Shown: positions 1,482 through 20,138 of the stretch, in pieces
Position numbering within the stretch: the stretch's first letter is position 1
Layout of the letters: each line of letters begins with the position of its first letter
Virus record (IMG/VR): IMGVR_UViG_3300042397_001710
Span: 1 to 20,138 of that record
DNA from: a virus
Length of the DNA stretch: 20,138 nucleotides
Strand: one strand, 5' to 3'
Translations under genes and position numbers: made by a program
Notes under the pieces: model-generated
The model's database searches: none
What the model was told of the DNA's origin: nothing
What the model saw: the letters and a program-made list of their open reading frames with translations, nothing else

Positions 1482-1485
1482 GGTG

Positions 1486-2698: not shown

Positions 2699-2701
2699 CT
2701 T

Positions 2702-3433: not shown

Positions 3434-3435
3434 TT

Positions 3436-5658: not shown

Positions 5659-6397
5659 CACGGGTCTTGTTGGATCCACTATTTTAGAAAGTGAATCATA
5701 CGACCACACTTTTAACAGTAAAAATTTAGATACATTTACGGACTTTGCACAAAACGGAGATGAGTTGTTCTTAACTTGTCTACCCGCAACGAAATGGATG
5801 GTGAATAAGAATCTAAAGGATGATATGAATAATATTCATAAAATAATTGAGACAATATCGATATTAAAATATTCTAAAGTAACTCTTATTTCAACAATTG
5901 ATGTTTATAATGATTCTCCTATTTTTTCAGATGAAACATATTCACCTAATATCAGTAAATTGAGTTACGGTAATAACCGTTATATATTTGAATTGATGGT
6001 TAAAGAAATGGTGAAGACAGATGATTTAAAAATATTCAGATTACCAGCATTGTTTAATAAAAACATCAAGAAAAATGTTTTATATGATTTAATACACAAT
6101 AATAACGTGGAACAAATTAATCAAAATTCATTTTTCCAATGGTATAATTTAGATAATCTAAAATCTGACATAGATAAGTTTTCAACGGAGTACCCTGAGG
6201 AAGTGGTATTCAATTTATTTACGGAACCAATACACACATCAGAAATTGTTGAGTTATTTTCTGAATATACAGATAAAGTTCAAAATGGAAGTAAAGTGAC
6301 ATATGATTACCATACCAAATTTGGTGGGTACATTTCGAATAAACATAACGTATTAAAAGAAATAAAACAATTTATCAATGAATTTAGCGTTAAGTAA
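5639..6397 (+). CDS. RmlD-like NAD(P)-dependent sugar reductase/epimerase (252 aa)
   Basis: This is a short atypical SDR. The cofactor motif is IIGNTGLVGST (Gly6, Gly9, Gly12), the compact version seen in RmlD-like dTDP-sugar reductases. The catalytic Ser/Thr region is LISTIDVYND at about 83-92. The usual Y-x3-K appears as SYGNNRYIFE, so Arg stands where Lys is expected. A later segment, IFRLPALFNKNIKKN, matches the substrate-side R-x-x-x-x-x-G/N element. It overlaps the preceding oxidoreductase by 20 bases and the following TIM-barrel gene by 20 bases. The Lys-to-Arg change could mean altered chemistry or a non-catalytic role. Confidence 0.72.
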   Translation: MKLIIGNTGLVGSTILESESYDHTFNSKNLDTFTDFAQNGDELFLTCLPATKWMVNKNLKDDMNNIHKIIETISILKYSKVTLISTIDVYNDSPIFSDETYSPNISKLSYGNNRYIFELMVKEMVKTDDLKIFRLPALFNKNIKKNVLYDLIHNNNVEQINQNSFFQWYNLDNLKSDIDKFSTEYPEEVVFNLFTEPIHTSEIVELFSEYTDKVQNGSKVTYDYHTKFGGYISNKHNVLKEIKQFINEFSVK

Positions 6398-7142
6398 TTT
6401 TGCTTGGGATAACCAAGATTCCGAAACTATATTTAAATCTTTAAAAGAGAATGGTATTAATAATATTGAATCCGTTTTAACTAAAATTAAAGACTGGTCC
6501 GAATTAGAAACCAAAGACATTGTTAGTTATAAAAAATATTTGGATGACAATGGGATTATTCCATACTCAATTCAATCACTATTCTATGGTGTTAAATGTG
6601 TTGATATAACCGATGTTGATGTTATTAAATCACATTTTGATAAGTTAATTTATTATTCTAAACTATTGGGTGTTAAGGTATTGGTGTTTGGTTCACCAGG
6701 ATTAAGAAAGAAAACTAATGGATGGGAAGATTCCTTAATTGAAATCTTTACCTATGTGGATAATATCTTGATTGGTACAGATATTAAAGTATTAATTGAA
6801 CCTAACACATCATCATACGGTGGTGAATTTTTTCACACGGTTAGTGATATTGTTAAATTTATTGATTCTAACGAGTTAAAAAATATTAAGACAATGATTG
6901 ACACTCACAACTCTATATTGGAGAATGTGGACCCTAATGTTGAACTTGTAGAGTATTTTAATTATATTGAACATATACACGTATCTGAACCAAAGTTAGT
7001 GGTAATTAAAGAAGATGAGTTTCATAAGAACTTTTCCAAAACGATTAAAGATTCTGGATATAATAAAACCATAACATACGAGGTAATGAAATCCCTTGAT
7101 TTAATATCTTCATTACAAACATTTTCAAAAATTTACAGATGA
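6378..7142 (+). CDS. Xylose-isomerase-like TIM barrel, sugar isomerase/epimerase (254 aa)
   Basis: The protein fits the AP-endonuclease-2/xylose-isomerase-like family, whose members isomerise or epimerise sugars at a metal site. The start MNLALSNFAWD is the first barrel strand. Expected metal or acid residues are visible in order: Glu141 (VLIEPN), Asp175 and His177 (MIDTHN), His201 (HIHVSEP) and Glu235 (TYEVM). The length is normal. DNA-repair endonuclease IV has more histidine ligands, so a sugar role is preferred, and the neighbours support it. It overlaps the next gene as ATGA. Confidence 0.75.
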   Translation: MNLALSNFAWDNQDSETIFKSLKENGINNIESVLTKIKDWSELETKDIVSYKKYLDDNGIIPYSIQSLFYGVKCVDITDVDVIKSHFDKLIYYSKLLGVKVLVFGSPGLRKKTNGWEDSLIEIFTYVDNILIGTDIKVLIEPNTSSYGGEFFHTVSDIVKFIDSNELKNIKTMIDTHNSILENVDPNVELVEYFNYIEHIHVSEPKLVVIKEDEFHKNFSKTIKDSGYNKTITYEVMKSLDLISSLQTFSKIYR

Positions 7143-8248
7143 ACATAACCTTCGTATTGGCAGTTTACAATAAATTAGATTTAACACAAGAATGTTATAA
7201 TCGTTTACGTAACGTATATCCAACAGCACCTTTGGTGATTAGTAGTGGTGGTTCATATGACGGAACCAAAGAATGGTTAGAATCATTGGAAGATAAGAAC
7301 CTTTCTTTTATTCATGATGATGATAGGTTAACATTTTCTGAAACGTATAATGCCGCCATTAAACTTGTTGATACAGAAAAACTTGTATTGATTCACAACG
7401 ATATGGTAATCGGTGAACAATTCTTAGAGAACTTAGATAGATTATTAGATGAGAATCCAAATACTTTATTATCATATACAACTATCGAACCCCCAATTTT
7501 TAGAGGACATCAAAGAGCAGGTAAAGTATTATTAGATTTAGGTTCAGGGTTTGATAACTTTGACCAATATCATTTTAATGTTTATGTGGACCAATGGAAA
7601 GATAGTAAGAATTTATACAATGGTGCGGTGTTCTTTATGAGTGGAACTAAAAAAATGTTTGAAGATGTTGGTGGGTTTGATGGTTTCAGTTTTGTACCTG
7701 CATTTTGTGAGGATGACGATTTCTTAATCCGTGCGAAACTAAAAGGTTATAATTTAAAAACCTGTGATTCTGCAATCACCTATCATTTTGTTTCGCAGAC
7801 ATCGAGATTTAGTGATGAGTTTAAAAAAGATAGAATGTTATATGAGGTTTCATCTAATAGAAACTTTATTAGAAAGTGGGGTGTACCAATCTCAGCATTT
7901 AACGAACTTAGGTATTGGGAAGAGGATAACTTTACTTATAAGACTTTTAATATGGGTTTAACCACTCGTAATAGAAATAGATTAATGGAAGTGGAACCAT
8001 TCTTTGATAAAATCGATTTAGGGGAGATTCCTGAGACTTATATTGAGAATGAACAAAAGAATACACGATACGATTTAAGGTCAAAATTTACCCTTACAGA
8101 CACGGTTGACGTGATGATTACAGAAGTTGACCAGTTTACAGATGATGACATTAGAACTTTACATAAAATAAGGTTATCAATACCTTACTACGAACCTGGT
8201 GAATACCAAATAGGAAATATGATGATAGTTATTAAAAAAACTATTTAA
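7139..8248 (+). CDS. GT2 glycosyltransferase with extra C-terminal domain (369 aa)
   Basis: The N-terminal GT-A domain starts MNITFVLAVYNKLDLTQECY. It contains a metal-site variant LVLIHNDMVIGEQFL (His86, Asn87, Asp88) and the conserved acidic cluster FCEDDDFLIRAKLKGYNL at about 188-205, which in GT2 enzymes holds the catalytic base. It then has the TYHFVSQTS element common after that motif. Roughly 100 C-terminal residues (from about 265) are not part of the core and may bind the acceptor. It is coupled to its neighbours by ATGA upstream and TAATG downstream overlaps. A transferase role is well supported; donor and acceptor are unknown. Confidence 0.86.
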   Translation: MNITFVLAVYNKLDLTQECYNRLRNVYPTAPLVISSGGSYDGTKEWLESLEDKNLSFIHDDDRLTFSETYNAAIKLVDTEKLVLIHNDMVIGEQFLENLDRLLDENPNTLLSYTTIEPPIFRGHQRAGKVLLDLGSGFDNFDQYHFNVYVDQWKDSKNLYNGAVFFMSGTKKMFEDVGGFDGFSFVPAFCEDDDFLIRAKLKGYNLKTCDSAITYHFVSQTSRFSDEFKKDRMLYEVSSNRNFIRKWGVPISAFNELRYWEEDNFTYKTFNMGLTTRNRNRLMEVEPFFDKIDLGEIPETYIENEQKNTRYDLRSKFTLTDTVDVMITEVDQFTDDDIRTLHKIRLSIPYYEPGEYQIGNMMIVIKKTI

Positions 8249-9096
8249 TGAATATACTTGTAACAGGAGGTGCCGGATTTGTTGGTACCAATTTAATTAA
8301 AAGACTTTTAAAAGATGGTCACGATGTTACATCGTTAGATAACTACTTAAGTGGTTTTAGTTCCAATCACCAAGATGGTGCAAATTATATATGTGGTGAT
8401 GTTAGAAATCTAGGAATATTAGATAACGTGAGATATAACATTATATTTCACCTTGCAGCAATTGCAAGAATACAACCATCATTTAAACATCCCGTTGAAT
8501 ATTTTGAAACGAATACAAATGGTACATTGAACGTGGCACAATATTGTGTTAAGAATGACATACCATTAATTTATGCCGGAAGTAGTTCACACCATAGTGG
8601 TAAGTTTAAAAATCCGTACACTTTCAGTAAGGATATTGGTGAGGAGATTATTAAACTTTATCAAGAACATTTTGATTTAAAGTCATCCATAACTCGTTTT
8701 TATAACGTATATGGTCCACATCATTTAAGAGATGGTGGTTATAGTACGGTAATCGGTAGATGGGAGAAACAATATGATGATGGTAATCCTTTAACAATAT
8801 ATGGTGATGGTTCTAAAAGAAGGGACTTCACACACATTGATGATATTGTTAACGCATTAATTAAGATATGTGATAAGGAATCGTGGGGACACACATTTGA
8901 ATTAGGTAGGGGTCAAAATTTTTCTTTAAATGAAGTTGCTGATATGTTTAAAAAAGATAGAGTTTATATGAAAGATAAACCAGGAGAGGCTCAAGAAACT
9001 TTATGTGAAAGTACATTGGCTAGACTAATTTTAGATTGGAAACCAATTGTAAATCTATACGATTATATAGATGAGTATAAAAAAAAGGGACTATAA
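8248..9096 (+). CDS. Extended SDR nucleotide-sugar epimerase/dehydratase (282 aa)
   Basis: This is an NAD-dependent epimerase/dehydratase family member. MNILVTGGAGFVGTNL gives Gly7, Gly10 and Gly13; IIFHLAAIARIQPSF and ETNTNGTLNVAQYC are standard elements. The active site shows AGSSSHHSG followed by NPYTFSK, giving Ser and Y-x3-K. RFYNVYGPHHLRDGGYSTVI, GDGSKRRDFTHIDDIV and the C-terminal lobe complete the family pattern. It is about 50 residues shorter than GalE, closer to bacterial WcaG-like enzymes. It would act on UDP-, GDP- or dTDP-sugars in the cytoplasm to supply donors for the glycosyltransferases upstream. Its stop codon lies in the loop of the terminator hairpin. Confidence 0.9.
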   Translation: MNILVTGGAGFVGTNLIKRLLKDGHDVTSLDNYLSGFSSNHQDGANYICGDVRNLGILDNVRYNIIFHLAAIARIQPSFKHPVEYFETNTNGTLNVAQYCVKNDIPLIYAGSSSHHSGKFKNPYTFSKDIGEEIIKLYQEHFDLKSSITRFYNVYGPHHLRDGGYSTVIGRWEKQYDDGNPLTIYGDGSKRRDFTHIDDIVNALIKICDKESWGHTFELGRGQNFSLNEVADMFKKDRVYMKDKPGEAQETLCESTLARLILDWKPIVNLYDYIDEYKKKGL

Positions 9097-9612: not shown

Positions 9613-10620
9613 TTAAATTATTGTCAATAGTGCATAAGTAATCATAAGAGATATCCACACAATTAAAGCCTTCAAGTAGGTCATAAATCCAGTATGGAAA
9701 TACTTTTGACCGATTGGTAGACATTTATGTGATGGGGATATCAAATATGCTGAATATTCTAATGTAAAGAATAATACGAAATAATGCATCCCAAAGACAC
9801 TTGTTAATAAACTAACGATACTTGCATATTTTGCGGATGACCCCAACATAAATGATGAAAGAAATGATATCATTGCAACAACTAAAATGTGTTCGGGTTT
9901 ACTATATTGTTTAATGTACCCTTCAATCACATTATAATATGAACCAACCAAGTTACCTAAAATAATAACTAAAGCAACGATCCATATTAGTTCCCAATCG
10001 ATATACCCCAATATTTTACTCCAACTTTTAGAGTAATAAACTAACCATATTGTGAATCCTGTGAAGAAACCAAAATAGTATTTAGTAAAAAACACACACA
10101 TTAATATGGTTACTAAAAATGGTATAACCACCATCGTTATGTTTTGCATATTAATTGGTCCATCTTTAACTTCAATATCAATCTCATCGTCATTTAATGA
10201 TAAGATATAATATGTAACATACAATACCGATATTAAAAGTAATGGCCAAATATATGACATGAATTGCATATAAGTTAAACTTAACACAGCCATTGGAATG
10301 ATAACCGTTTTCTCTAATGGAGACCATAGATAGTAATGATGTGTTGCTAAGTAATCGATGATACCAAACTTCTTACGTTTCTTATTATCAACAGGAGCAA
10401 TGCTGTTTAACATTGATGCCGATAATGCAACACGTCCAGGAATAGGTAGGATACCACCAAAGAGTGATACTAAAAACACTACCATCCTCTTAGACTTAAC
10501 TTTTTGTTCAAGTAGTCTGAATATGTCCATAAGGTATCCTCTTTCTTTGAGGATACCTGTTACGAACATAATGAATATTAAGTAGACAAGAAACTCTTGT
10601 CCTTTGATTAAAATCTCCAT
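9613..10620 (-). CDS. DUF401-family integral membrane transporter-like protein (335 aa)
   Basis: This polytopic inner-membrane protein has roughly nine to ten hydrophobic segments. Features I associate with DUF401 (ion-transporter-superfamily type permeases) are visible. Early on there is VVFLVSLFGGILPIPGRVALSA, with the Pro-x-Pro-Gly turn at residues 59-62. A middle segment HHYYLWSPLEKTVIIPM follows, and near the end is YLISPSHKCLPIGQKYF, which matches the family's SPxHxCL signature. The family's substrate is not established. The start overlaps the stop of the outer-membrane barrel gene by 13 bases, so the pair is coupled. Such a transporter is unusual in a phage; it may be an auxiliary metabolic gene or alter host uptake. 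Confidence 0.75.
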   Translation of the reverse strand: MEILIKGQEFLVYLIFIMFVTGILKERGYLMDIFRLLEQKVKSKRMVVFLVSLFGGILPIPGRVALSASMLNSIAPVDNKKRKKFGIIDYLATHHYYLWSPLEKTVIIPMAVLSLTYMQFMSYIWPLLLISVLYVTYYILSLNDDEIDIEVKDGPINMQNITMVVIPFLVTILMCVFFTKYYFGFFTGFTIWLVYYSKSWSKILGYIDWELIWIVALVIILGNLVGSYYNVIEGYIKQYSKPEHILVVAMISFLSSFMLGSSAKYASIVSLLTSVFGMHYFVLFFTLEYSAYLISPSHKCLPIGQKYFHTGFMTYLKALIVWISLMITYALLTII

Positions 10621-11492
10621 GCAAATATAATTGTGGTTCTTGATTGTTTTGCGTCTTGATTAAGACCTGGCATGTGCTCAACATTCAAATAAGCCTTGTT
10701 ATTAAATCGATATTGAAGTAGTGGCCCAAGATACCACTCTTGTGAACCTCCATCAAAATCGTTGTATCTAAACATATGTGACACACCTAAAGTTAAATCA
10801 TTATTGATGATGTTAGCGTACGATGCAGTGTAAGCGTATTCGTCTTCACGAAGTTCTTTGACTCTTGATAAATTACCTTCATAAATTGCGTTGAATCCCC
10901 AAATACCTCTTTCTCCGATTCTGTCACCCAATAATAATTTTGGTTCGATACCCCAACGACCATCTAACATTTTTGTTTCCCAATAAAGAGTTGGGTTACC
11001 CCATAACTTACCCCAATCGGCAAGAGCATAACGAAATTCCCAAGAGAACCCTCTCCATTTGAATTCTTTGTCTCCATTGTATCCATCATAAACCGTATGT
11101 GAATATAAGTCTAACTGAAGTCTTTTACCCAAACCGAATGTGAACTCATCCCTCATTCTGATTTGTGCCGGTCCGTTTCTTCTTTGTCTGATATCAAACC
11201 ACTTCTCGTACATTGCGGTACCTGGTGGGTTCATCACATAAACTCTAGTGGATGCAAACATTCTCATTGTTGTCCAAAGTGGTTGACCGTAAGGACCTAC
11301 CTTGGTCATTAAAGGTACCTTCTTTGCTGTAACAACAATTTCTTGTAATTGATTAGGGACTGTGTCCGTTTGAACTTTTAAGGATTGTTCTGAACCTTTC
11401 TGAATTGCACTACTACTGTATTGTCCAAATGACATAGTGGTAGTAAACAATAGTGCTAACATTAGCGATAGCATTGTGATTGTTTTTCTCAT
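10608..11492 (-). CDS. Small outer-membrane beta-barrel with signal peptide (294 aa)
   Basis: The start is at 11492 (MRKTITMLSLMLALLFTTTM), because upstream codons run into the tRNA. Residues 1-24 form a classic signal peptide ending SFGQ, the Bacteroidota style. A short linker follows with QEIVVTAKK (residues 50-58), which looks like a TonB box, although no plug domain follows. From about residue 65 there are alternating polar/aromatic strands (FTFGLGKRLQLDLYSH, PTLYWETKM, and so on), and the chain ends TTIIFAWRF with a terminal Phe, as in barrels assembled by the BAM machinery. It is probably an outer-membrane protein placed in the host during infection. It is coupled to the DUF401 gene. 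Confidence 0.75.
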   Translation of the reverse strand: MRKTITMLSLMLALLFTTTMSFGQYSSSAIQKGSEQSLKVQTDTVPNQLQEIVVTAKKVPLMTKVGPYGQPLWTTMRMFASTRVYVMNPPGTAMYEKWFDIRQRRNGPAQIRMRDEFTFGLGKRLQLDLYSHTVYDGYNGDKEFKWRGFSWEFRYALADWGKLWGNPTLYWETKMLDGRWGIEPKLLLGDRIGERGIWGFNAIYEGNLSRVKELREDEYAYTASYANIINNDLTLGVSHMFRYNDFDGGSQEWYLGPLLQYRFNNKAYLNVEHMPGLNQDAKQSRTTIIFAWRF

Positions 11493-11525
11493 TTTGTTTT
11501 TGTTTAAGAAAAGTTTATAAAATTG

Positions 11526-11615
11526 CGGGGAGGAAGAGATTCGGACTCTCGATTGAATGTTAAGTCCAATAGCAGCTTCGGAGGCTGTCGGTTTAAACCA
11601 CTCACCCACCTCCCC
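11526..11615 (-). tRNA. Class II tRNA, serine-type body with CCG anticodon
   Basis: A 90-base cloverleaf reads on the minus strand. The seven-bp acceptor stem is GGGGAGG/CCTCCCC. The D stem is GGT/ACC with GG in the loop. A five-position anticodon stem has one A-C mismatch at 27-43. The variable arm is 21 bases with a four-bp stem (ATTG/CAAT). The T stem is GAGAG/CTCTT. G73 and the long arm are serine features. The anticodon loop is CTCCGAA, giving anticodon CCG, which reads the arginine codon CGG. The T loop is TCCGAAT, with C in place of the near-universal T55. CCA is not encoded. The barrel gene begins 33 bases downstream. Confidence 0.78.
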
Positions 11616-11658: not shown

Positions 11659-12321
11659 TTACCTTTCAATTAAAAATATTCCAAGACCATTCCAAAAGTC
11701 TTTAGAATCTTCTCCACTTGTATGTATATTTTTTTGATATGTGATAATAGAATTACTTTCTTCTAATGCTTTAATTGCACCCTCTTTTTGCCAATTCCAA
11801 TCATCTACAATGAGAATACATTTATCTGACATATGTGGAATTAATTTCTTAATTGTTGTGTATTGGTCATAGTATTTTGTTTCCCCATCATAGAATATAA
11901 TATCTAATGGTTCTATGGTTGAATAATCAAACTCTAAATAATTTGCACGATACACATTCATGTTTTCCACGTTACCAAATTTCTTTACGTTCGATAAGAA
12001 CTCTTCTTTCGGGTCGTTGGGTTGACTTCTTAAATAAGATGTCATCTTTTGACTAATTCCGTTTGGCATTAAAAATGGTGAACTCCAATTATCAATACCA
12101 GTTGCTTTAATATCATTACCATAAATTGCAGAACAAAATGTGGAACCCCTGAATACACCAATTTCTAAATAATGTGCACCATCAATATTACATATGTTAT
12201 TGAGTAAACACTTCACTTTATTACTTGTGATTCCTTGGATGTTTATAATATCTAAGGTTAATTTAGATACTTCTAATTCTGCCCAATGTATTGAGTCTTC
12301 AATATGTTTAATATAATCCAT
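11659..12321 (-). CDS. SAM-dependent methyltransferase, Methyltransf_24-like (220 aa)
   Basis: The ATG at 12321 is preferred: it overlaps the stop of the preceding gene as TGATG, while the GTG one codon earlier is less likely. Motif I is HYLEIGVFRGSTFCSAI at about 50-66. A second acidic motif is ATGIDNWSSP, then DIIFYDGETKYYDQYTTI at about 140-157 and CILIVDDWNWQKEGA at about 168-182. The YDGxHxY-like and VDDW elements are characteristic of the Methyltransf_24 family, which methylates sugars and other small molecules. The usual His in the DGxH position is Thr here. It is the last enzyme of a four-gene cassette. No substrate is identifiable. Confidence 0.8.
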   Translation of the reverse strand: MDYIKHIEDSIHWAELEVSKLTLDIINIQGITSNKVKCLLNNICNIDGAHYLEIGVFRGSTFCSAIYGNDIKATGIDNWSSPFLMPNGISQKMTSYLRSQPNDPKEEFLSNVKKFGNVENMNVYRANYLEFDYSTIEPLDIIFYDGETKYYDQYTTIKKLIPHMSDKCILIVDDWNWQKEGAIKALEESNSIITYQKNIHTSGEDSKDFWNGLGIFLIER

Positions 12322-13346
12322 CACTTTCCTTTTTTATGGTCCGCAACAATGTCGCAGTAATTACAATCCCAACATTGAAATTTACATTTTTTAATTTTAT
12401 TTCTCCAACCATCTAATTCATCTGATGGTACACCATCTAAATATATTTCAGATGTTGGTCCTAATATTTCATTTCCCTTTGCATATGCTTTAATTACACT
12501 CATAGTATCATCTAACTTATTGAAACTATCTCTTCCGTGCATTTTGAATACATCAACATAGTTAAGAAATTCATCATAGTCTTTCTTAAATGGTGGTATG
12601 GTTGCAGCTTTAAAAAAGAACGCATTAATTTCTTTTTCCCATTTATATTCACAAGTTACTTTTGATATCTCGTGTCTAAAATATGGTAACTCATTATCAG
12701 TCTTTAAGTTATTGTATGAATAGTGTTCATCCATCATTGGACATCTACCTAAACAACCTTCATTCGTTAATAATGCAATGTTTACATACCTACCATATTT
12801 CTGTTGGAATTGTAATTGAGCTCGTCTAATGTTTTTTAATTCTTCAACATCTCTCATTAAAATTCTATCGATGTTGATGTAATCAAATCCTTGCTCCGCA
12901 TTGTACCAGAAGTCTTGTGCTGTTGCTACCTTCCTAAGAATAGTATTCTTAATTTCCATATCAGGAAAGTGTTTCTTAAGACCCATAGCAACCCAATGTG
13001 CGTGTGGTATGGTTATACATCTTAATCCCTTTTCATATAATGGTTTAAGGTTCTCAATAAACATTTGATAGTTATTGAAATTAGGGGATATGTTAATATT
13101 ATTAAATGTTGCGCTAACTCTAATACCCAACACATCCTGTATTTGAAGCGCGTTCTCTATTACAACGTTTCTATCTTCCGGTGTAAATACAGAACCCATT
13201 GCATCTTGGGTGAATGGTGGGATTCTACATGTAAAGTAAACATCATATATCCAATCTTTATGTTCTTGTAAGAATGGTACGAATCTACCAATGAAATCTT
13301 CCTCAGATAACATTGGATTTAATGGTATTGAAAATATTTTACTCAT
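12321..13346 (-). CDS. U32-like TIM-barrel protein with two Cys clusters (341 aa)
   Basis: The chain looks like a TIM barrel (FSIPLNPMLS at the start, GIRVSATFNNI, LRCITIPHAHWVA, YINIDRILM and other strands). A conserved NEGCLGRCPMMDEHY segment places Cys198 and Cys202 close to a histidine, with Cys232 thirty residues on. This resembles the U32/UbiU-V-like group that binds an Fe-S cluster. The C-terminus adds a second set at Cys321, 325, 328 and 331 (KCKFQCWDCNYC). Its gene overlaps the upstream radical SAM gene by eight bases, so the two proteins probably act together. Protease activity, implied by the old U32 name, is not indicated. The family assignment is tentative. Confidence 0.6.
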   Translation of the reverse strand: MSKIFSIPLNPMLSEEDFIGRFVPFLQEHKDWIYDVYFTCRIPPFTQDAMGSVFTPEDRNVVIENALQIQDVLGIRVSATFNNINISPNFNNYQMFIENLKPLYEKGLRCITIPHAHWVAMGLKKHFPDMEIKNTILRKVATAQDFWYNAEQGFDYINIDRILMRDVEELKNIRRAQLQFQQKYGRYVNIALLTNEGCLGRCPMMDEHYSYNNLKTDNELPYFRHEISKVTCEYKWEKEINAFFFKAATIPPFKKDYDEFLNYVDVFKMHGRDSFNKLDDTMSVIKAYAKGNEILGPTSEIYLDGVPSDELDGWRNKIKKCKFQCWDCNYCDIVADHKKGK

Positions 13347-14346
13347 GTTGGTTTCCTTCTAAACATCCACCACAAATTCCGTTACATAACGTGTCATAGA
13401 AATGACAATCTAAACAGTCTTTTGGTAATGTATAATTTTTATGATTTTCTGTGTATAATTTATCGAACTCTTCTCTTAATGATAATATATTACTTTCTCC
13501 CGTAATATTCAATACATTATCGATTTTAACTTTATCTTCCAATGGATAACAATGTATTGAACTTCCGTCAGGGAAAACATCTAAGGGCATAAATCCACAT
13601 ATTGTTTTATACTCCGGTATTTTAAATGTGGCAAACCCTAATGAATTTTCCATTACAGATTCTTTTGATTTACCTTCCCATAAACATGGTGGTACTTGGC
13701 AATCGGAAGTAATTCTAATATCATTATACTTACCAAATTTAAGTATCTTAGTAATCTCCGAACCCATTTCTTTGTTGTTAACAAGATATATGTTTGTTAA
13801 ATCTAACCCAACTCTAATGGCATTAATCTTACCATCCAATTGATGGTACAACCATTTAATGTACTCATAGAAATTCTTTTCTTTCCAATTACTTGACATT
13901 GTAATTGCCAAATATAATCTTGGGTGATTATCAAACCCCCATGTGTTAAGATAAGCGTTGTAAATTTCAGTGTAATTCTTTTTGAATATAACCATTCTAT
14001 TCTTCTCATCTAACTCAGCAGCGTTTGGGAATACCCATCGAATGTGTCTAATGTTTTTAATGATGAATTCTCTTGTGGTTTTACTAAACAGAAAGTTACT
14101 TACAAGATTGATTTTTAATCCTTTAGATATGATATGTTCAACAATTCCTGTGAAGTTCGAATGTTGTGTTGGTTCACCACCTAATATGGTAATCTCTTCT
14201 TTACTATTGTTAAGTTGGTAGTGGTCAATTAACTCATCTACTTTAGATAAAGTCATTTCACCTAAAGTATGTTGTACTCTAGCTTCTTCCTTTGTGAAAC
14301 AAAAAGAACATCCTTTAGCACATGTACCATTAATTACAAAGTTCAT
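13339..14346 (-). CDS. Radical SAM protein with SPASM-like C-terminus (335 aa)
   Basis: The N-terminus gives the radical SAM cluster motif C-x3-C-x2-C at Cys9, Cys13 and Cys16 (NGTCAKGCSFCFT). It is followed by the SAM-binding ILGGEPTQHS (GGEP at 56-59) and LKINLVSNFLFS. Later, CGFMPLDVFPDGSSIHCYP resembles the first half of a SPASM domain. The last 25 residues hold Cys311, 314, 321, 325 and 328 (CLDCHFYDTLCNGICGGC), enough for an auxiliary Fe-S cluster. Proteins of this kind modify peptides or proteins, or act in cofactor synthesis. The start codon directly follows the stop of the 2OG oxygenase. No precursor peptide ORF is visible nearby. Confidence 0.86.
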   Translation of the reverse strand: MNFVINGTCAKGCSFCFTKEEARVQHTLGEMTLSKVDELIDHYQLNNSKEEITILGGEPTQHSNFTGIVEHIISKGLKINLVSNFLFSKTTREFIIKNIRHIRWVFPNAAELDEKNRMVIFKKNYTEIYNAYLNTWGFDNHPRLYLAITMSSNWKEKNFYEYIKWLYHQLDGKINAIRVGLDLTNIYLVNNKEMGSEITKILKFGKYNDIRITSDCQVPPCLWEGKSKESVMENSLGFATFKIPEYKTICGFMPLDVFPDGSSIHCYPLEDKVKIDNVLNITGESNILSLREEFDKLYTENHKNYTLPKDCLDCHFYDTLCNGICGGCLEGNQHE

Positions 14347-14991
14347 TTAAACGTATCTAAATTGTTTAGTCTTGAGCCAATTTGGATTGGCGTCAGGTTC
14401 GTTATTAATATCAAATGCGATTCCCACTCTTAAATCACCATTCCATTGTTTAAATTCATGTTCAATATATGATGAAAATATTGAAACTTCTCCAGGAATG
14501 TTTGGGAGGTCGACTACATTGATACTACTATCAAATATACCAATTTTTTTTTGTTTAAACAAATATGTTGTATGTGTTTTTTCTGATGAGTAAAGAAAGC
14601 AATGACCGCTAAGTGCATATGGAAATTTCTTTTTACTCATATTATCCATATGTTTGTGTAGTCCAAGATAATCACCTTGTCTAAAAATGTTTGCCCACAT
14701 TTTAATATAGAAATTTTCCCATCCTAATGTATTGAAAATCAATTCTTTAATCTTAGATATTAAAATGTCAGTTTCAGGGATTTCTAAATCAATTAAATTA
14801 TAATATGTGTGATAATTTGTTATATTACTATGGTTTACAATGTTCATGTGTAACTTTGTTCCATCGTTAAGTCCCTTAATGTAAGATTCCCTTTCCAATA
14901 TTTTATCAGAAAGGGAATTAGTTGTTGTAGAATCTATGAAGTCTGATGTTATGATACCATATTCATAAGTTTCTAAATAATTTTCAATCAT
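14347..14991 (-). CDS. 2-oxoglutarate/Fe(II)-dependent oxygenase (214 aa)
   Basis: This is a double-stranded beta-helix oxygenase. The Fe(II) ligands are visible as H-x-D at His114 and Asp116 (LHKHMDNMS) and a distal His178 (SSYIEHEF). Ten residues later Arg188 (GDLRVGIAFDIN) is the expected 2-oxoglutarate anchor. The spacing and the IPGEVSIFSS strand fit the phage-common 2OG-Fe(II) oxygenase families, in which the substrate is often unknown. It lies one base after the stop of the upstream gene and abuts the radical SAM gene. A hydroxylation or oxidative step on a protein, sugar or lipid is likely; the target cannot be named. Confidence 0.84.
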   Translation of the reverse strand: MIENYLETYEYGIITSDFIDSTTTNSLSDKILERESYIKGLNDGTKLHMNIVNHSNITNYHTYYNLIDLEIPETDILISKIKELIFNTLGWENFYIKMWANIFRQGDYLGLHKHMDNMSKKKFPYALSGHCFLYSSEKTHTTYLFKQKKIGIFDSSINVVDLPNIPGEVSIFSSYIEHEFKQWNGDLRVGIAFDINNEPDANPNWLKTKQFRYV

Positions 14992-14992
14992 A

Positions 14993-15733
14993 TTAAAAAT
15001 CCATTGCTAATGTTAAAGGTGAAGTCTCAACATTCTCATCTAATTGTTGTTGGTAACTCATACTAACACCAAATTTCTCATGTTTCAATCTATGACAATC
15101 AGGAACGTTTTGACATGCTTTAACTCTTTGTTCTAATTGTTGTTGTTCAACAAGTAAATTAGCTAATTTTATTTTATATGACTCAACATTTGTTAAAATT
15201 TTAGTAACTAACTCTTGTTTAGTTACACCTCTACCTGTTGCCAATATATCAATCAATGGCGTACTGGCGGTATTATCTGATTGGTAAAGTAACGCCTCTC
15301 TTTTTTGTTCTTCCCAAGTTGCAACCTCTAAGTTAGAAGCATCAACAATTAGATTTTTCATTCTTTCAGAAAATCTATCGGCGATGACTTTTAACATTAC
15401 GAACTTATTAAACTTAACTGCCAATTCTCTATCCTCATCTGTTAAAAAATATTTTACTTTTTCAGTTTCAAGTTCTCCCGAGTTTGCAAATTGTGGGAAC
15501 TCATCTATAACGTTAGAATTAGTTCTAATTGAAACATATTCCTTATAGATATCTGCGAAGATATATCCTCTAGCAAATTCCTCGGGAACAACAACTGCAT
15601 TCATTTTTATTAATTCAACTCTGTTATCGTCATAGTCAGCATGTATTCTACCAACGGTGTAGTTTAAATAACTACTTAACTTAGTTACATACCCAGGAGA
15701 CTCTACCCCCATTTTAAAAATAATGTGTTTCAT
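14993..15733 (-). CDS. Uncharacterised phage protein (246 aa) with a helical domain near 140-215
   Basis: The N-terminal half (MKHIIFKMGVESPGYVTKL...) is beta-rich and of unknown type. The C-terminal part, from about NLEVATWEEQKREALLYQSDN through LIDILATGRGVTKQELV to KILTNVESYKIKLANLLVEQ, is a helical domain. I recognise it as a recurring element in phage tail-fibre accessory proteins, with W-x3-Q...A...Y, a D-x2-A-x2-R-G turn and a long amphipathic helix. A Cys pair (CQNVPDC) follows it. It overlaps its upstream neighbour as TAATG and sits one base before the oxygenase. A role as virion component or fibre-assembly factor is an inference. Confidence 0.6.
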   Translation of the reverse strand: MKHIIFKMGVESPGYVTKLSSYLNYTVGRIHADYDDNRVELIKMNAVVVPEEFARGYIFADIYKEYVSIRTNSNVIDEFPQFANSGELETEKVKYFLTDEDRELAVKFNKFVMLKVIADRFSERMKNLIVDASNLEVATWEEQKREALLYQSDNTASTPLIDILATGRGVTKQELVTKILTNVESYKIKLANLLVEQQQLEQRVKACQNVPDCHRLKHEKFGVSMSYQQQLDENVETSPLTLAMDF

Positions 15734-16497
15734 TATAATAATTTTTCGTTTATAGTTTCATTAGATGTTCCAATTTTAAATTGGTCCTTTAATTCATTTG
15801 AAATCATATCTTGATTAGTTGCTGCCATACCCATTAATGTGTTAATGTTTCTATCTATGGTAACAGTATATGTTGACGCTAACGCCATAACTTCTTTTTG
15901 TTGTTCGGGTGACATCATTAAAATTGAATCTAAATTACCTGTACCGACTCTACCGTAAGATATCATATCCAACATCGCCTGTTTAGCCATACGAACACTC
16001 CAATAATCTTTCTCATATTTATCCTCAAGTAGTTGGTTATTAAAAACTTCCATAAGAGACCTACCATCTGGCATTTTACTATCGTCACTTTCTAAAAAAT
16101 CTTTAATCAAGTCAATAAAAATTTGTCTTTCTCTATATGCATCCTTTAAATTTCTTTGGTATTTTCTTAAGTCGATGTGCATATCTTTAATACCCAATTC
16201 AACTAATTCCTTTCTTAATGGTTCAGTTAAGAATTCCATTTTCTCGTGTTCTAATTGAATTTCAATTTCTTTTTTTCTAAGAAGATATTCCATGTGTTCT
16301 GCAGCATCCTCTCTTGATCTTAACTCCATTAACCATTGTCTTAATTTAGCATATGGAGTTATTTGTGCTCCACCAACAAAGTTTTCCGCTTTATACTTTG
16401 GTAATGCAAAACTTAATCCTTCAGCAACGTCCAATAGTTTTCTATCTTCTTCGTTTAACGTATCTGATGCTCTTTTGTATTCAAATTTTTTGTCCAT
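15733..16497 (-). CDS. Uncharacterised helical phage protein (254 aa), probably structural
   Basis: This is a mostly alpha-helical, highly charged protein with a likely coiled-coil region at about 70-140 (HMEYLLRKKEIEIQLEHEKM and following). A later segment, DYWSVRMAKQAMLDMISYGRVGTGNLDSILMM, is a conserved-looking amphipathic block, and the tail is Asn/Gln-rich. There are no membrane segments, signal peptide or catalytic motif. The gene follows the two propeller-like proteins and begins 13 bases after a predicted transcription start, making it the first gene of the unit that ends in the modification enzymes. I do not recognise the family. A baseplate or fibre-linked role is inferred from position. 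Confidence 0.55.
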   Translation of the reverse strand: MDKKFEYKRASDTLNEEDRKLLDVAEGLSFALPKYKAENFVGGAQITPYAKLRQWLMELRSREDAAEHMEYLLRKKEIEIQLEHEKMEFLTEPLRKELVELGIKDMHIDLRKYQRNLKDAYRERQIFIDLIKDFLESDDSKMPDGRSLMEVFNNQLLEDKYEKDYWSVRMAKQAMLDMISYGRVGTGNLDSILMMSPEQQKEVMALASTYTVTIDRNINTLMGMAATNQDMISNELKDQFKIGTSNETINEKLL

Positions 16498-16516: not shown

Positions 16517-16545
16517 AATATAAATAAAATTTTTGATAATGTCAA
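16517..16545 (-). promoter_or_regulatory. Strong promoter candidate, TTGACA-N17-TATATT
   Basis: On the minus strand a perfect -35 box TTGACA (16540-16545) is followed by 17 bases and TATATT (16517-16522). It occupies the only gap (48 bases) between the propeller pair and the next six genes. The -35 box directly follows the stop codon of the gene at 16546. A start near 16510 would leave about 13 bases before the ATG. Confidence 0.65.
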
Positions 16546-17655
16546 CTACCCCCTCCAACCATTTGCACCTGAAGATGTTCCCGCATTAACACCAGGATTT
16601 AATCCCGATACACTATTGGAACCACTATCAGTTGCATAATAGAATTTCCAACTGTTATTTGTTTGACCCGTGCCATCATAAACTCCTAACATATATTGCC
16701 AATCTTGCCCCATGGTAAAGTTTTCTTCTCCACAATTAGGGTGTGGTTTAGCAACCGTACCAATATTAGTGTCGTTTGATGTTGTCCATCTTCTTAAGTT
16801 ATAACCACCATTGTACGAACCTTCATTGCCCGCATATCCTTTACCTACCTTAGAACTAATACCCTTTTGTTGTCCGTGTGCGCTCCATAATGAACCATTT
16901 GTAAATGTTTCGGTTGAAAAATTAAATTTAACACCATTACCCGAATTAAAAGCATATCCGTAATTTTCATCACAGAACGCCCCAGCACCTTCAGAAGAAT
17001 TAAAACTAGATAAATTATAACCAGTAACTATAGCCTCATTAGATAAATTAAATTTATCAACACTTGTTTGTCCACCAGCAACAATCCAAGCGGCCTCTGT
17101 TTCTTTAAACATAACAGCCAAATCAGATCTTGCACTCGTAATATCAAATTTAGATTGATGTGCATAGTTAGTTTCATTTGACATATTAACCGCAGTTGTA
17201 TATGTTCCCTGTACATCGGAGGGACCTTTATGAGCATTGTCAGTATTTGCTGAAAAAACAAATAAGATAGTTTTACTACATGCCGCTTTTGTGTAGTTTG
17301 CCGGATAGTCCAATAATGCACCCATGTGGGTTGTTTGGTCTGTGGATACCACCGTTCTATGAACATTCTTCCATGGTGATGAGTCTTTATAACCACCAGC
17401 CAAATATGCATAATTAATTATTGTGCGATACTTGAACGCTGTATTCGCACTTTGTTGTGATGAAATTCTTTCCCATCCGTCATCGTTATTTGAAATTGCG
17501 GTATATACCATCATATAACTACCACTTGACGCTGTCTCTAAAAATAGTGACCCGATTGCTGGACTCGTTGGTCTATTAGCTCTTGTGTTCTTTGGTCCGG
17601 CAATAATTTGTGCAGCCCTCAAAGAACCACTTACTTCCATATTTTCGTATATCAT
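16546..17655 (-). CDS. Propeller-like virion appendage protein, copy B (369 aa)
   Basis: The N-terminus MIYENMEVSGSLRAAQIIAG leads into RPTSPAIGSLFLETASSGSYM, a short head module common in phage fibre proteins. The rest is a run of Kelch-like repeats: AGGYKDSSPWK...STDQT, AWIVAGGQTSVDKFNLSNE, YGYAFNSGNGVKFNFSTET, GYNLRRWTTSNDTNIG and SWKFYYATDSGSN. Each has a turn then an aromatic strand, suggesting a beta-propeller. It ends in a Gly/Ser/Asn-rich tip, NAGTSSGANGWRG. It is a clear paralogue of the next upstream gene with the same domain order, 19 bases away. A role as tail appendage or receptor-binding protein is likely. Confidence 0.72.
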   Translation of the reverse strand: MIYENMEVSGSLRAAQIIAGPKNTRANRPTSPAIGSLFLETASSGSYMMVYTAISNNDDGWERISSQQSANTAFKYRTIINYAYLAGGYKDSSPWKNVHRTVVSTDQTTHMGALLDYPANYTKAACSKTILFVFSANTDNAHKGPSDVQGTYTTAVNMSNETNYAHQSKFDITSARSDLAVMFKETEAAWIVAGGQTSVDKFNLSNEAIVTGYNLSSFNSSEGAGAFCDENYGYAFNSGNGVKFNFSTETFTNGSLWSAHGQQKGISSKVGKGYAGNEGSYNGGYNLRRWTTSNDTNIGTVAKPHPNCGEENFTMGQDWQYMLGVYDGTGQTNNSWKFYYATDSGSNSVSGLNPGVNAGTSSGANGWRG

Positions 17656-17674: not shown

Positions 17675-18817
17675 TTATGCTCTCCATCCGCAGTGACCAG
17701 ACGACATTCCACCATGGGTTGTTGGGTTTAATCCCGACACACTTGATGACCCTGTATCCGTTCCATAATAGAATTTCCAACTACCATTATTTTGTAAACC
17801 ATCATAATTTCCAATCATATACTGATGGTCTTGCCCCATCGTAAAATTCTCTTCTCCACAATTTGGATAAGGTTTAGCTACGTTACCTATATTGGTTTCA
17901 GTCGCATAATCCCATCTTCTTAAATTATAACCCCCATTATATGTTCCTTCATTACCGGCGTAACCTTTACCTACTTTGGAACTGATACCTTTTTGTTGAC
18001 CACTAGCACCCCATTGTTGTTTAACGTTCATTGTATCTGTGGCAAAGAATAATTTCATTCCACTTTCAGAACCATATCCATATCCATAATTTTCATCTGA
18101 GAATCCTGCGGCACCTAAACTACTTGTAATAGATGAATTCTGTACATTGGTACTTGTATATGCATTATATAAATTGAGATACATAGTTTCATTAGTGAAA
18201 TTAAACTTCTCAACTGCTGCAACCGCCCCTCCAAATATCCACGCAAATAATGTTTCTTGGAATAAAGTACCTGGTTGGTCTCTTGCGTTTGTTAAGTCCC
18301 ATTTTGTTTGATGAGCGTACCCTGTTTCATTAACCATATTAATACCTGTGGTGTATGTACTATTAACATCTGTTGCTGAGTGCCACGCGTTATCTGTATT
18401 AACTGACCACATGAATAATATTGTTTGACTACATCCGCCTGAAGAATATGATGATGGATAATCCATTATATCACCAACACTAACCGTTTGGTCGGTTGAA
18501 TTGATTGTTCTTTGTACTGTTTTCCAAGGTGAAGCATCTTTGTATCCACCCGCAGTATATGATGTTGTAATGATTGTTCTATATTTGAAAGCAATTCTTG
18601 AATCATCTTGTGAACCGATTGGTTCCCATCCCGCATCAATGTTATTGATACCATTATAAACCATAATGATACTACCACTTGATGAAGTTTCTAAATATAA
18701 TGAACCCGTATCGGGTGTTGCGGGTCTATTACTTCTATCACCAGCAGGAACAATTAATTGTCCTGTTGAACCTCCAGTCGTTAATGAACCACTTACTATT
18801 ACATTCTCTCTTAACAT
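17675..18817 (-). CDS. Propeller-like virion appendage protein, copy A (380 aa)
   Basis: The layout matches copy B: MLRENVIVSGSLTTGG at the start, RPATPDTGSLYLETSSSGSI, then the propeller-like repeats, and a Gly-rich end HGGMSSGHCGWRA. Long blocks are nearly identical to copy B, such as QQKGISSKVGKGYAGNEG, NGGYNLRRW and NCGEENFTMGQD. The regions near 185-240 (FAWIFGGAVAAVEKFNF, then the NAYTSTNVQNSSITSSL loop) diverge and include an insertion. This fits gene duplication followed by change in exposed loops. It starts right after the tail fibre and just below a predicted promoter whose -35 box is inside the fibre gene. Confidence 0.72.
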   Translation of the reverse strand: MLRENVIVSGSLTTGGSTGQLIVPAGDRSNRPATPDTGSLYLETSSSGSIIMVYNGINNIDAGWEPIGSQDDSRIAFKYRTIITTSYTAGGYKDASPWKTVQRTINSTDQTVSVGDIMDYPSSYSSGGCSQTILFMWSVNTDNAWHSATDVNSTYTTGINMVNETGYAHQTKWDLTNARDQPGTLFQETLFAWIFGGAVAAVEKFNFTNETMYLNLYNAYTSTNVQNSSITSSLGAAGFSDENYGYGYGSESGMKLFFATDTMNVKQQWGASGQQKGISSKVGKGYAGNEGTYNGGYNLRRWDYATETNIGNVAKPYPNCGEENFTMGQDHQYMIGNYDGLQNNGSWKFYYGTDTGSSSVSGLNPTTHGGMSSGHCGWRA

Positions 18818-18824
18818 ATTCTAT

Positions 18825-18853
18825 AATATACGTATTTTATCTTACAACTACAA
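18825..18853 (-). promoter_or_regulatory. Promoter candidate, TTGTAG-N17-TATATT
   Basis: On the minus strand TTGTAG (18848-18853) is followed by 17 bases and TATATT (18825-18830). The -35 box overlaps the codons for the last Val residues of the fibre protein. The predicted start falls at about 18818-18820, immediately before the ATG at 18817, so the transcript would have almost no leader. Confidence 0.4.
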
Positions 18854-20138
18854 CCCTACCTGACCTAGAAGATGCAAAAGTTATTGTAACAACACTTGTA
18901 CTTGTTGTAACAATTGATGATGGCCAGAACATATTATCTGAACTGTCATAAACAAATACCGCCACGTCTTTTGTTCCTAAACTATGTGTAACTGTTACTG
19001 ATGATACACTACTAAATGATGTTGAATATGATGAGTTTGAAATTGATTTAGCGGTACTTCCACCGATAGTTAATGCGGTGTGGAAATTTGGTATACCACC
19101 TCCACTAATTGAAAATATATACCCGGTATTTGTTCCATCATTTTTATAAATGTAAAATGGCGTTGTATCTGTATTAGATCTACCAACTATTTCCCATTTG
19201 TTATTTCCTGCAGAGTCTTGAAATTGAATAATGTTACCACTAGTTGAGGTCAACTCTCTTAATTTTAAAACCCGACTATCGGTATCACTGGTAAATATCG
19301 CAGCCTTAAATGTAGGTACTGCCGATGTTGCAACTGATTGTCCTATGGATACGGTAACCGAACCTGTTGTTGTGTCAACACCAACACCCGTTCCCGCATT
19401 AACCGCAGTTACTTTAGCCGCGGTATATGTTGTTGATATTGAACTACCATTCCAAGTACCACTTGTAATTGTACCAACCGTTGCTAAATTCGATAATGAC
19501 GTTAATGATGTATTTGAACTTGCTGTAATGTTTGTTGCATTTCCAGTTAATGTACCGATAAAATTACCAGAGTTCATTGTTACTCCCGAATTGTCAACAG
19601 TCATTATTTTAGTCCAAGTACCACCACCGGTTCCCGCTGAGTTATACCAGTGGGTTAAACCACCGGTGCTAAGACTATCAATTGCACCATGTGGAACGTT
19701 ATCTCCATTTGCATCTGGTGCTCCCCACCAAACTGATGCGGTTGATGTACCTCTAAAATATACTGTTCTACTTGTGTCTGTTGCATTTCCACCAAATGAA
19801 TTACCAAATGTTACACTACTCGCGCCAGATGAAAATTTAACAAGGTTTGATGTCGCGGTGCCACTTCTTAAATAAGTTGCAGTTACTCCGGCAAATGTTG
19901 GTGTTGATGTTGTTGCAATACTTTGTGGTAAACTTAATGTAACTCCACCTGTACTTGCACTAACCGTTACTTGATTACTTGTTCCTGTTAAAGATGTCAC
20001 ACCACTATTTGTGACTGTAACGGCACCTGTTGTTGTATCAACACTAATACCAGTTCCTGAACTTACACTTGTAACTTTAGCTGCGGTGTATGTTGTACTA
20101 ATCGATGAACCATTCCAAACACCCGTACCAATTGTACC
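18837..20138 (-). CDS. Tail fibre protein, 5' truncated (433 aa visible)
   Basis: The open frame runs in from the right edge; a GTG at 20000 is internal and is not a start. The visible chain is rich in Thr, Ser, Gly and Val with fibre repeats such as VWNGSSISTTYTAAKVTSVS and SGTGISVDTTTGAVTV, repeated at about 221-residue spacing. A Gly/Asn-rich middle (TLTGNATNITASSNTSL...) follows. The C-terminus, VTHSLGTKDVAVFVYDSSDN and then TITFASSRSGRVVVVR, is a familiar tip domain of phage fibres. No intramolecular chaperone (peptidase) domain is visible, so maturation probably does not involve self-cleavage. Its role is adhesion to host surface polysaccharide or protein. Confidence 0.85.
   Translation of the reverse strand, partial: GTIGTGVWNGSSISTTYTAAKVTSVSSGTGISVDTTTGAVTVTNSGVTSLTGTSNQVTVSASTGGVTLSLPQSIATTSTPTFAGVTATYLRSGTATSNLVKFSSGASSVTFGNSFGGNATDTSRTVYFRGTSTASVWWGAPDANGDNVPHGAIDSLSTGGLTHWYNSAGTGGGTWTKIMTVDNSGVTMNSGNFIGTLTGNATNITASSNTSLTSLSNLATVGTITSGTWNGSSISTTYTAAKVTAVNAGTGVGVDTTTGSVTVSIGQSVATSAVPTFKAAIFTSDTDSRVLKLRELTSTSGNIIQFQDSAGNNKWEIVGRSNTDTTPFYIYKNDGTNTGYIFSISGGGIPNFHTALTIGGSTAKSISNSSYSTSFSSVSSVTVTHSLGTKDVAVFVYDSSDNMFWPSSIVTTSTSVVTITFASSRSGRVVVVR
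19351..19475 (-). repeat. Fibre internal repeat, copy 1
   Basis: This 125-base block matches 20014-20138 at the same length with scattered, mostly third-position differences. It encodes the VTAVNAGTGVGVDTTTGSV and WNGSSISTTYTAAK segments. The offset is 663 bases (221 codons), so the repeat keeps frame. Confidence 0.8.
20014..20138 (-). repeat. Fibre internal repeat, copy 2 (may continue past the edge)
   Basis: Partner of 19351-19475. It encodes WNGSSISTTYTAAKVTSVS and SGTGISVDTTTGAVTV. The match reaches the window edge, so the repeat may be longer or have more copies outside the window. Confidence 0.75.

Follow-up and report, generated by a model that had tools for sequence, protein, structure and literature searches.

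The window, as we call the whole stretch of 20,138 nucleotides analysed here, contains six genes that all lie on the minus strand and run head-to-tail from 16497 to 11659, separated by overlaps or by gaps of 0 to 8 bases. The ORF list bears out the coordinates and the close spacing that the initial annotation gave for four enzyme genes and the two genes upstream of them. Since the identical order recurs in relatives, the set cannot be put down to chance. The cassette sits downstream of fibre and propeller-like genes of the same strand. The outermost of these (18837 to 20138) encodes a fibre-like repetitive protein whose frame is open to the contig end; it has a weak match to phrog_21918 (2.3e-5), a family also matched by the long fibre of a related phage locus, L247. 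Two proteins follow for which we keep the earlier word "propeller" as a putative label: A (17675 to 18817; phrog_1417, 9.5e-47), with distant matches in the T4-GC350/351 region of cyanophages, and B (16546 to 17655; phrog_1417, 2.6e-44). The cassette itself opens with two partner proteins, g353 (15733 to 16497; T4-GC353 family; phrog_1409, 3.9e-44), which has matches in 123 cyanophage records, and g352 (14993 to 15733; T4-GC352 family; phrog_1604, 4.9e-30), which has partial matches in 109 phage records.

Just ahead of g353, at 16517 to 16545 on the minus strand, lies the promoter-like element TTGACA-N17-TATATT. Taken singly the match is near chance, because the whole window holds three sites that agree at 11 of 12 positions, where 15 simulations gave 1.7 on average. 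What speaks for the proposed promoter is its place: 24 of the 39 upstream regions listed, the window's included, carry TTGAnn-N17-TATATT 45 to 51 bases ahead of the equivalent start codon (window and L006, both among the 39, are identical). Co-transcription of the cassette with phage proteins, as originally suggested, is likely.

Behind g352 come the enzymes, and the identities first assigned to them are supported by family matches, fold and bacterial intermediates. The gene at 14347 to 14991 (minus strand) encodes a probable 2OG-Fe(II) oxygenase matching phrog_81 (2.8e-12) and 2OG-FeII_Oxy_5 (PF13759; 7.3e-6), the latter with 26.7 bits, just under the cut-off of 27. Next, at 13339 to 14346 on the same strand, is a radical SAM/SPASM-type enzyme. 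It matches Radical_SAM (PF04055; 3.8e-10, 40.6 bits against a cut-off of 29.5), and its CX3CX2C motif (C9, C13, C16) is invariant in the 17 aligned rows. Equally invariant are C250, C266, C311, C314, C321, C325 and C328, presumably a SPASM-type pattern; the SPASM domain model TIGR04085 scores 16.5 bits against its cut-off of 27, and each of the 25 NCBIfam models listed, out of 36, falls under its own cut-off. The CX3CX2C motif and, presumably, the SPASM-type cysteines are shared with the radical SAM/SPASM peptide maturases, but between the six genes there is no RiPP precursor peptide gene and, within the cassette, no room for one. The ORF spacing thus confirms an absence noted from the beginning.

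The protein encoded at 12321 to 13346 (minus strand) receives no direct name from Pfam or NCBIfam, and because no Pfam match of that name exists the label "U32-like" needed other evidence. Within phages it matches the N-half of phrog_1458 (1.1e-93), and all 19 members of the phage alignment fail to match PF01136 at E up to 10. Distant kin were found by profile in 12 of 395 genomes (E 2e-12 to 9e-5). Three of the five such bacterial intermediates scanned exceed the PF01136 cut-off (1.2e-13, 1.2e-6 and 3.2e-5) and two do not; for the L095 paralog there is no PF01136 match over the cut-off. Searching PDB sequences with three single proteins and with two profiles yielded no useful match. Predicted structures point the same way as the intermediates. 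For the model of the window protein the solved U32 domain 5d88 ranks first (Foldseek E 6.1e-7; Z 15.5, rmsd 3.7, 203 residues aligned), followed by MTHFR at Z 14.5. In the model of a fused homolog, L213, the N-terminal domain also has 5d88 on top (Z 15.6, rmsd 3.3, 220 aligned; next 13.8). For the two-domain L213 model, whose domain arrangement is uncertain (pTM 0.56), 5d88 is absent among the 50 Foldseek matches listed; we discarded this ranking, which consists of pyruvate kinases throughout at rmsd 26-27. TIM barrels are common, and the fold match is for that reason to be weighed together with the bacterial intermediates. By the two combined, the protein is a divergent U32 relative.

Seven cysteines are invariant in the alignment of 19: 198, 202, 232, 321, 325, 328 and 331, that is C-X3-C, C, then C-X3-C-X2-C-X2-C. 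Of 122 ORFs with 335 residues or more, 121 show this pattern, and the remaining one is cut. It is distinct from the canonical U32 iron-sulphur motif CX6CX15CX3/4C, which is absent here; in the excerpts of PMC6747719 that we used, UbiV and two U32 families deviate from that motif too. The protein resembles the oxygen-independent U32 hydroxylases UbiU/UbiV and RlhA in its TIM barrel, its conserved cysteines and a distant profile link through bacterial intermediates, while differing from them in cysteine spacing. We infer that it carries an iron-sulphur cluster.

The last gene encodes an O-methyltransferase-type protein at 11659 to 12321 (12324 if translation begins at GTG); the start is probably the ATG at 12321, because relatives start there. 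The protein matches the C-half of phrog_1458 (7.1e-35) and Methyltransf_24 (PF13578; 1.4e-8, 36 bits against a cut-off of 26.3), a model which is not specific for O-methyltransferases. By inspection, FYD(G/A)...DD(W/A)N is shared by the window, six clade members and four cyanophages. Cation-dependent O-methyltransferases bind their metal through an Asp, Asp-Asp, Asn motif, and the shared residues agree with it. Structural comparison was made with the predicted L213 domain, not with the window's own chain. Its leading matches are MeT1 (Z 15.7), MycF (15.3) and SpnH (15.2), with TrmR at 14.4 and COMT at 14.3; enzymes other than O-methyltransferases score comparably (TYW2 14.8, a precorrin methyltransferase 14.3). 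On this model the fold is of the O-methyltransferase type.

These matches bring in one alternative reading, in which the enzymes oxidise and O-methylate a sugar on the virion or host surface, or tailor a small molecule. The structure titles of MycF and SpnH name them as sugar O-methyltransferases, and MeT1 we take to be another. The window's opposite strand carries glycosyltransferases, a GDP-mannose-dehydratase-like gene and a xylose-isomerase-like barrel, and a sulfotransferase is found near the gene on L095. However, catechol-type O-methyltransferases lie within about 1.5 Z of the top, the window's sugar genes are on the other strand from the cassette, and the consulted parts of PMC6747719 and PMC11574389 mention no sugar-acting U32 protein. 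We regard this alternative as unlikely.

How far do these genes belong together? Among 126 distinct uncut viral U32-like genes (14 further genes are cut and stand outside this number), the methyltransferase is fused to the U32-like protein in 84 and encoded by the next gene in 42. The core is accordingly this pair, usually one fused gene. Each half has matches in 123 of 50,697 GenBank phage records, all of them cyanophages. A radical SAM/SPASM gene stands directly upstream of the U32-like gene in 44 of the 44 genes that the window's protein retrieved and beside none of the 96 others, as judged by a profile from 13 clade members at E 1e-4, which sees only radical SAM genes similar to that of the window. 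The same 50,697 records hold no homolog of the window's radical SAM protein at E 1e-5. The 2OG oxygenase is present in 8 of the 44. So one clade has the radical SAM gene as an extra, and the 2OG oxygenase is optional. 2OG oxygenases also occur near the core pair in other phages (L240, S-CAM4 and L098).

The four enzymes had been proposed to form a unit, with co-occurrence of their families in relatives set beforehand as the test. Three of them do strictly co-occur within the sampled clade; the 2OG oxygenase does not, and the idea of a four-enzyme unit gives way to that of a core pair with additions. The core is already present in public cyanophage genomes as T4-GC354 (S-ShM2, P-SSM4, Syn19; the same gene in S-CAM4), a member of phrog_1458 with the two domains of the window pair and with g352/g353-type neighbours. 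It differs from the window in being one fused gene without a radical SAM gene of the window's kind, and is annotated "hypothetical protein" in all four phages. In the titles and abstract openings searched we found neither a phage U32 protein nor a report of this cassette.

Of 121 loci that have two or more genes upstream of the core, 115 carry g352/g353 within six genes on that side. The linkage is not absolute, because in S-ShM2 about 6 kb separate g353 from the fused gene. In L247, the phage copy with the longest branch, the U32-like and methyltransferase genes are directly behind a protein of 2173 residues; its best match is phrog_13589 (4.2e-60), a family of unknown function, and its next matches are long tail fibre families, phrog_11011 (2.6e-34) and phrog_33119 (4.2e-20). 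Outside phages, the gene on a Desulfocapsa MAG contig (L094) is flanked on one side by an RTX-repeat protein (PF00353, 1.1e-14), truncated where the contig begins, and on the other by a C39-peptidase ABC exporter, all on one strand; such an RTX neighbourhood was seen once. L095 has a sulfotransferase between the gene and a GLUG-repeat protein that ends about 3.7 kb away. Two further distant kin have mixed neighbours. A general rule that distant bacterial kin stand beside surface proteins was rejected, as the arrangement is absent in 5 readable regions of 7.

The partner g352 itself was compared for signs of a target. C-X5-CH is found in 40 of 40 distinct sequences from contigs with a complete radical SAM gene, where the C-terminal tail is conserved as well. 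The 68 other sequences, some of them from clade contigs cut before the radical SAM gene, include 4 with the second Cys and 2 with the His. Together with the adjacency of g352 to the enzyme genes, this might suggest that the radical SAM/SPASM enzyme alone matures g352 or another partner, for instance by a Cys thioether, while the U32-like protein and the methyltransferase do an unrelated job. Yet the same clade has several private Tyr positions in g352, so that C-X5-CH may be ordinary divergence, and the radical SAM gene directly neighbours the U32-like gene in 44 of 44 cases. We consider such a division of labour very improbable. As a proven target C-X5-CH was rejected as unspecific, and no motif in the g352 comparison stands out from ordinary clade divergence.

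What might the cassette do? The closest analogy is with TrhP and TrmR, which serve tRNA ho5U34/mo5U34 and, like the window pair, consist of a U32-type protein with an O-methyltransferase-type partner; the sections of PMC6599085 consulted describe trhP1, trhP2 and trmR as one operon in B. subtilis, and yceA(trhO)-trmR gene fusions in three eukaryotes. It could be argued that the phage pair likewise hydroxylates and O-methylates a tRNA or rRNA base, tuning decoding late in infection. TrhP and RlhA, both U32 proteins, act on RNA; TrmR and the tRNA enzyme TYW2 are among the methyltransferase fold matches; and in the window, as in 4 of the 7 related loci scanned, the gene immediately after the methyltransferase encodes a tRNA. 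Against this, the window tRNA has the anticodon CCG and therefore no U34 to modify, the fold scores fail to separate TrmR from sugar and catechol O-methyltransferases, and the constant neighbours are fibre-locus genes. The phage proteins also differ from TrhP-TrmR in their cysteine pattern and in being mostly fused, and the window protein has no match to the TrhP model. Modification of RNA is in our estimate quite unlikely.

From the same analogy, hydroxylation followed by O-methylation is the likeliest chemistry. Among possible targets an adhesin-type protein of the locus is the likeliest, because of g352/g353 upstream in nearly all loci, the fibre context of L247 and the RTX/exporter context of L094; the initial suggestion of a virion protein fares well here. 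We tentatively favour, at a little less than an even chance, the reading that the cassette serves the tail-fibre locus as a modification set. In this reading the U32-type iron-sulphur protein would put a hydroxyl on the fibre, the propeller-like proteins or g352/g353, and the O-methyltransferase would cap it. The radical SAM/SPASM enzyme in this clade, and the 2OG oxygenase in some members, would add further oxidative steps. With a target in the fibre locus, an effect on host adhesion or fibre stability may be expected. Two further points count against this reading. As far as the consulted parts of PMC6747719 and PMC11574389 go, every characterised U32 oxidase works on RNA or in the making of ubiquinone, and none on protein. 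The pair is moreover carried by cyanophages, whose hosts produce oxygen, a setting in which an oxygen-independent hydroxylase is unexpected.

A bolder extension is possible but doubtful: a widespread group of T4-like phages may possess the first protein-acting U32-type hydroxylase, mostly as a fusion with an O-methyltransferase, and bear methoxylated side chains on their receptor-binding or fibre proteins, with a radical SAM/SPASM upgrade in one clade and with bacterial relatives acting likewise on secreted RTX-type adhesins. The core is carried by host-grown phages (P-SSM4, S-ShM2 and Syn19), so the question is open to virion mass spectrometry. The fused protein is present in at least 123 sequenced cyanophage records. 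If it does modify fibres, host recognition would depend on chemistry that the sequence does not reveal, and a new class of target would be added for U32 proteins.

The six genes of the cassette occupy 16497-11659 on the minus strand of the window, a viral record of 20,138 bases, just where the initial annotation had placed them; neighbouring genes overlap or are spaced by 0 to 8 bases. Its naming of the methyltransferase and of the radical SAM protein agrees with Pfam and PHROG matches; its 2OG oxygenase has a PHROG match, but the Pfam score falls just under the cut-off. Of 39 upstream rows, 24 have a TTGAnn-N17-TATATT element ahead of the first gene, g353; the six genes may therefore share one transcript with its own promoter. 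No Pfam match of the window's U32-like protein bears the U32 name. It matches the first half of phrog_1458 very strongly and the methyltransferase matches the second half, an early hint that the two form a single gene elsewhere.

The core of the cassette is this U32-like/methyltransferase pair, usually fused. Counted separately, the U32-like protein, the methyltransferase and the partner protein g353 were each matched in 123 of 50,697 GenBank phage records, all of which bear the name Synechococcus phage, Prochlorococcus phage or cyanophage. Of the 50,697 records, g352 has partial matches in 109 and the 2OG oxygenase matches in 17. The pair is a single gene in all four cyanophage regions that we read (numbered T4-GC354 in three), downstream of fibre genes and T4-GC349-353-type genes; in S-ShM2 some 6 kb separate it from g353. 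Five scans of IMG/VR, two of them covering the best 80 of 176 and the best 80 of 239, gave at least 140 distinct U32-like ORFs. The methyltransferase is fused in 84 of these 140 and is the next gene in 42, and no U32-like ORF without it was seen among the 140, 14 of which are cut.

What is the U32-like protein? Seven cysteines are invariant in an alignment of 19 rows reaching from the window to cyanophages, and of 122 ORFs with a length of 335 residues or more, 121 show the pattern, the sole exception being cut. The predicted structure of the window's protein is a TIM barrel (pLDDT 78.3, pTM 0.79, with stretches under pLDDT 50 that include cysteine regions). Among solved structures the U32 domain 5d88 matches it best (Foldseek E 6.1e-7; Z 15.5 and rmsd 3.7 over 203 aligned residues), and MTHFR scores 1 Z less. 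For the N-terminal domain of a fused homolog, L213 (pLDDT 79.6, pTM 0.56), 5d88 is again first (Z 15.6, rmsd 3.3, 220 aligned; next 13.8); for the L213 model it is absent among the 50 Foldseek matches listed. A profile search of 395 bacterial genomes of one phylum found matches in 13, namely the starting genome and 12 distant ones, from 10 of which an ORF was recovered. These ORFs have NEGCLxxCP and the C-terminal cysteines in common; three of five such distant proteins scanned exceed the PF01136 cut-off, and for one there are further matches to the TrhP and UbiU models, with scores well under the cut-offs. In a second phylum (124 genomes) the profile matched the starting genome and no other. 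Sequence and predicted structure together indicate that the protein is a divergent U32 relative. Since it lacks the canonical cysteine motif, we do not class it with the characterised U32 oxidases. In L125 (6017-8376) a distant U32-like gene sits, by eye, directly behind an ordinary-looking U32 gene, resembling the paired genes ubiU-ubiV and trhP1-trhP2.

The U32 oxidases known so far introduce a hydroxyl group independently of O2, and their likely oxygen source is prephenate (PMC6747719 and PMC11574389). In B. subtilis, trhP1, trhP2 and trmR share one operon and contribute to the conversion of U34 to ho5U and then mo5U, and a yceA(trhO)-trmR fusion occurs in three eukaryotes (PMC6599085). By analogy, a two-step reaction would suit a pair so strictly kept together, and often fused, in phages: the U32-type protein would hydroxylate a target, and the O-methyltransferase would then methylate the new hydroxyl. 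The methyltransferases of the window clade and of four cyanophages have the motifs FYD(G/A) and DD(W/A)N in common. MeT1 is the top structural match of this domain in the fused model, and the sugar O-methyltransferases MycF and SpnH, catechol O-methyltransferase COMT and tRNA O-methyltransferase TrmR all lie within the same span of about 1.5 Z; non-O-methyltransferases match too (TYW2, 14.8). The sugar-, catechol- and tRNA-acting O-methyltransferase families have a metal requirement.

The radical SAM gene is the mark of a single clade. It stands immediately upstream in all 44 distinct ORFs retrieved with the window's protein, all unfused, and none resembling it was detected among the neighbours examined of 96 ORFs from other queries (84 fused, 2 followed by the methyltransferase, 10 cut); this examination is sensitive only to genes resembling the window's radical SAM protein, and nine of the 96 start at the contig start, with the upstream neighbour out of view. 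The 13 sampled rows of the radical SAM group form one clade, with support 100/99, in a tree of 42 U32-like domains; four sequences from the MAG contigs L093-L096 join its side with weaker support (88/97), and of these contigs L093 may itself be viral because of a dCTP-deaminase-like neighbour seen by eye. Of the four enzyme families initially proposed as a set, three occur together throughout the clade sampled; the 2OG oxygenase is present in 8 of the 44 clade genes. Two fused loci have, directly upstream, a gene picked up by the 2OG oxygenase profile; in one of them, L240, it was confirmed as PF13759.

What might be modified? A protein of the fibre locus is suggested by the constant neighbours, by the fibre-type protein before the L247 pair and by the context of L094. 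Among 121 loci with at least two upstream genes, g352 or g353 lies within six genes upstream in 115. The exceptions are L012, whose contig begins inside the cassette, L156, L157, L240, L241 and L247, the phage copy on the longest branch of the tree, where its placing is uncertain. In L247 the pair directly follows a 2173-residue protein whose best match is a family of unknown function, with long tail fibre families ranking below. In L094, a Desulfocapsa contig, an RTX-repeat protein and a C39-peptidase ABC exporter flank the gene, all three on one strand. L095 has a GLUG-repeat protein and a sulfotransferase within a few kb, and CysD- and CysN-like genes are nearby in L095 and L096 by eye. By tblastn, no such MAG contig has the methyltransferase beside the U32-like gene, and distant bacterial kin have varied neighbours in which we found no common theme.

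Against a fibre-locus protein, RNA and quinone are the known U32 targets. The methyltransferase is also followed by a tRNA gene in the window and in four of seven related loci, though the CCG anticodon has no U34. It is called as tRNA Arg(CCG), 91 bases, at 11525-11615 on the minus strand; from its long variable arm we take its body, by eye, to be Ser-type. Identical or near-identical copies follow the cassette in L007, L065, L077 and L090. CGG is nearly unused: it occurs once among the 6,324 codons of 22 window genes and 29 times among 66,719 codons of ORFs from ten related loci. Weighing both sides, we tentatively favour a fibre-locus modification cassette, at a shade under an even chance, slightly lowered because 5d88 ranks first overall in just one of the two models and because the methyltransferase domain matches non-O-methyltransferases too.

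Several further features deserve mention. The partner protein g352 (14993-15733) and its relatives end in PLTLxMDF or PLTLxIDF in 40 of 40 distinct sequences from radical SAM contigs, and 50 of 68 from other contigs have a terminal Phe. The cassette is followed on the minus strand (9613-11492) by a DUF401 permease (PF04165, 2.6e-10) and by a putative outer-membrane protein that has no Pfam match and, by eye, a Bacteroidota-like signal end; ORFs of similar size do so in many clade contigs. A plus-strand run of sugar-type genes (234-9096) holds glycosyltransferases, a methyltransferase, a DAO oxidoreductase, a xylose-isomerase-like barrel and a GDP-mannose-dehydratase-like gene. A second Cys protein with NAGCxxxCPxR and no Pfam match adjoins the U32-like gene in L095 (8744-9520) and L096 (2041-2820), amid genes that by eye are acetyltransferase-, TauE-, CysD- and CysN-like. 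In L249 (9150-10406), from a Desulfocapsa-order genome, a distant U32-like gene lies near several secreted-looking proteins containing CxxCH. L251, a 251-kb relative of the window clade, carries a Gp23-type major capsid protein whose nearest records include Rhodothermus phage RM378, Microcystis phage Mel-JY01, Flavobacterium phages and an uncultured phage; among four other relatives searched for Gp23, two showed just weak partial matches and the remaining two none.

In searches of mainly open-access literature, none of the papers listed dealt with a phage U32 protein or with this cassette. The radical SAM member has no match in the 50,697 GenBank phage records. We rate the cassette as a U32-type/O-methyltransferase pair found in a new context, to which a radical SAM enzyme has been added.
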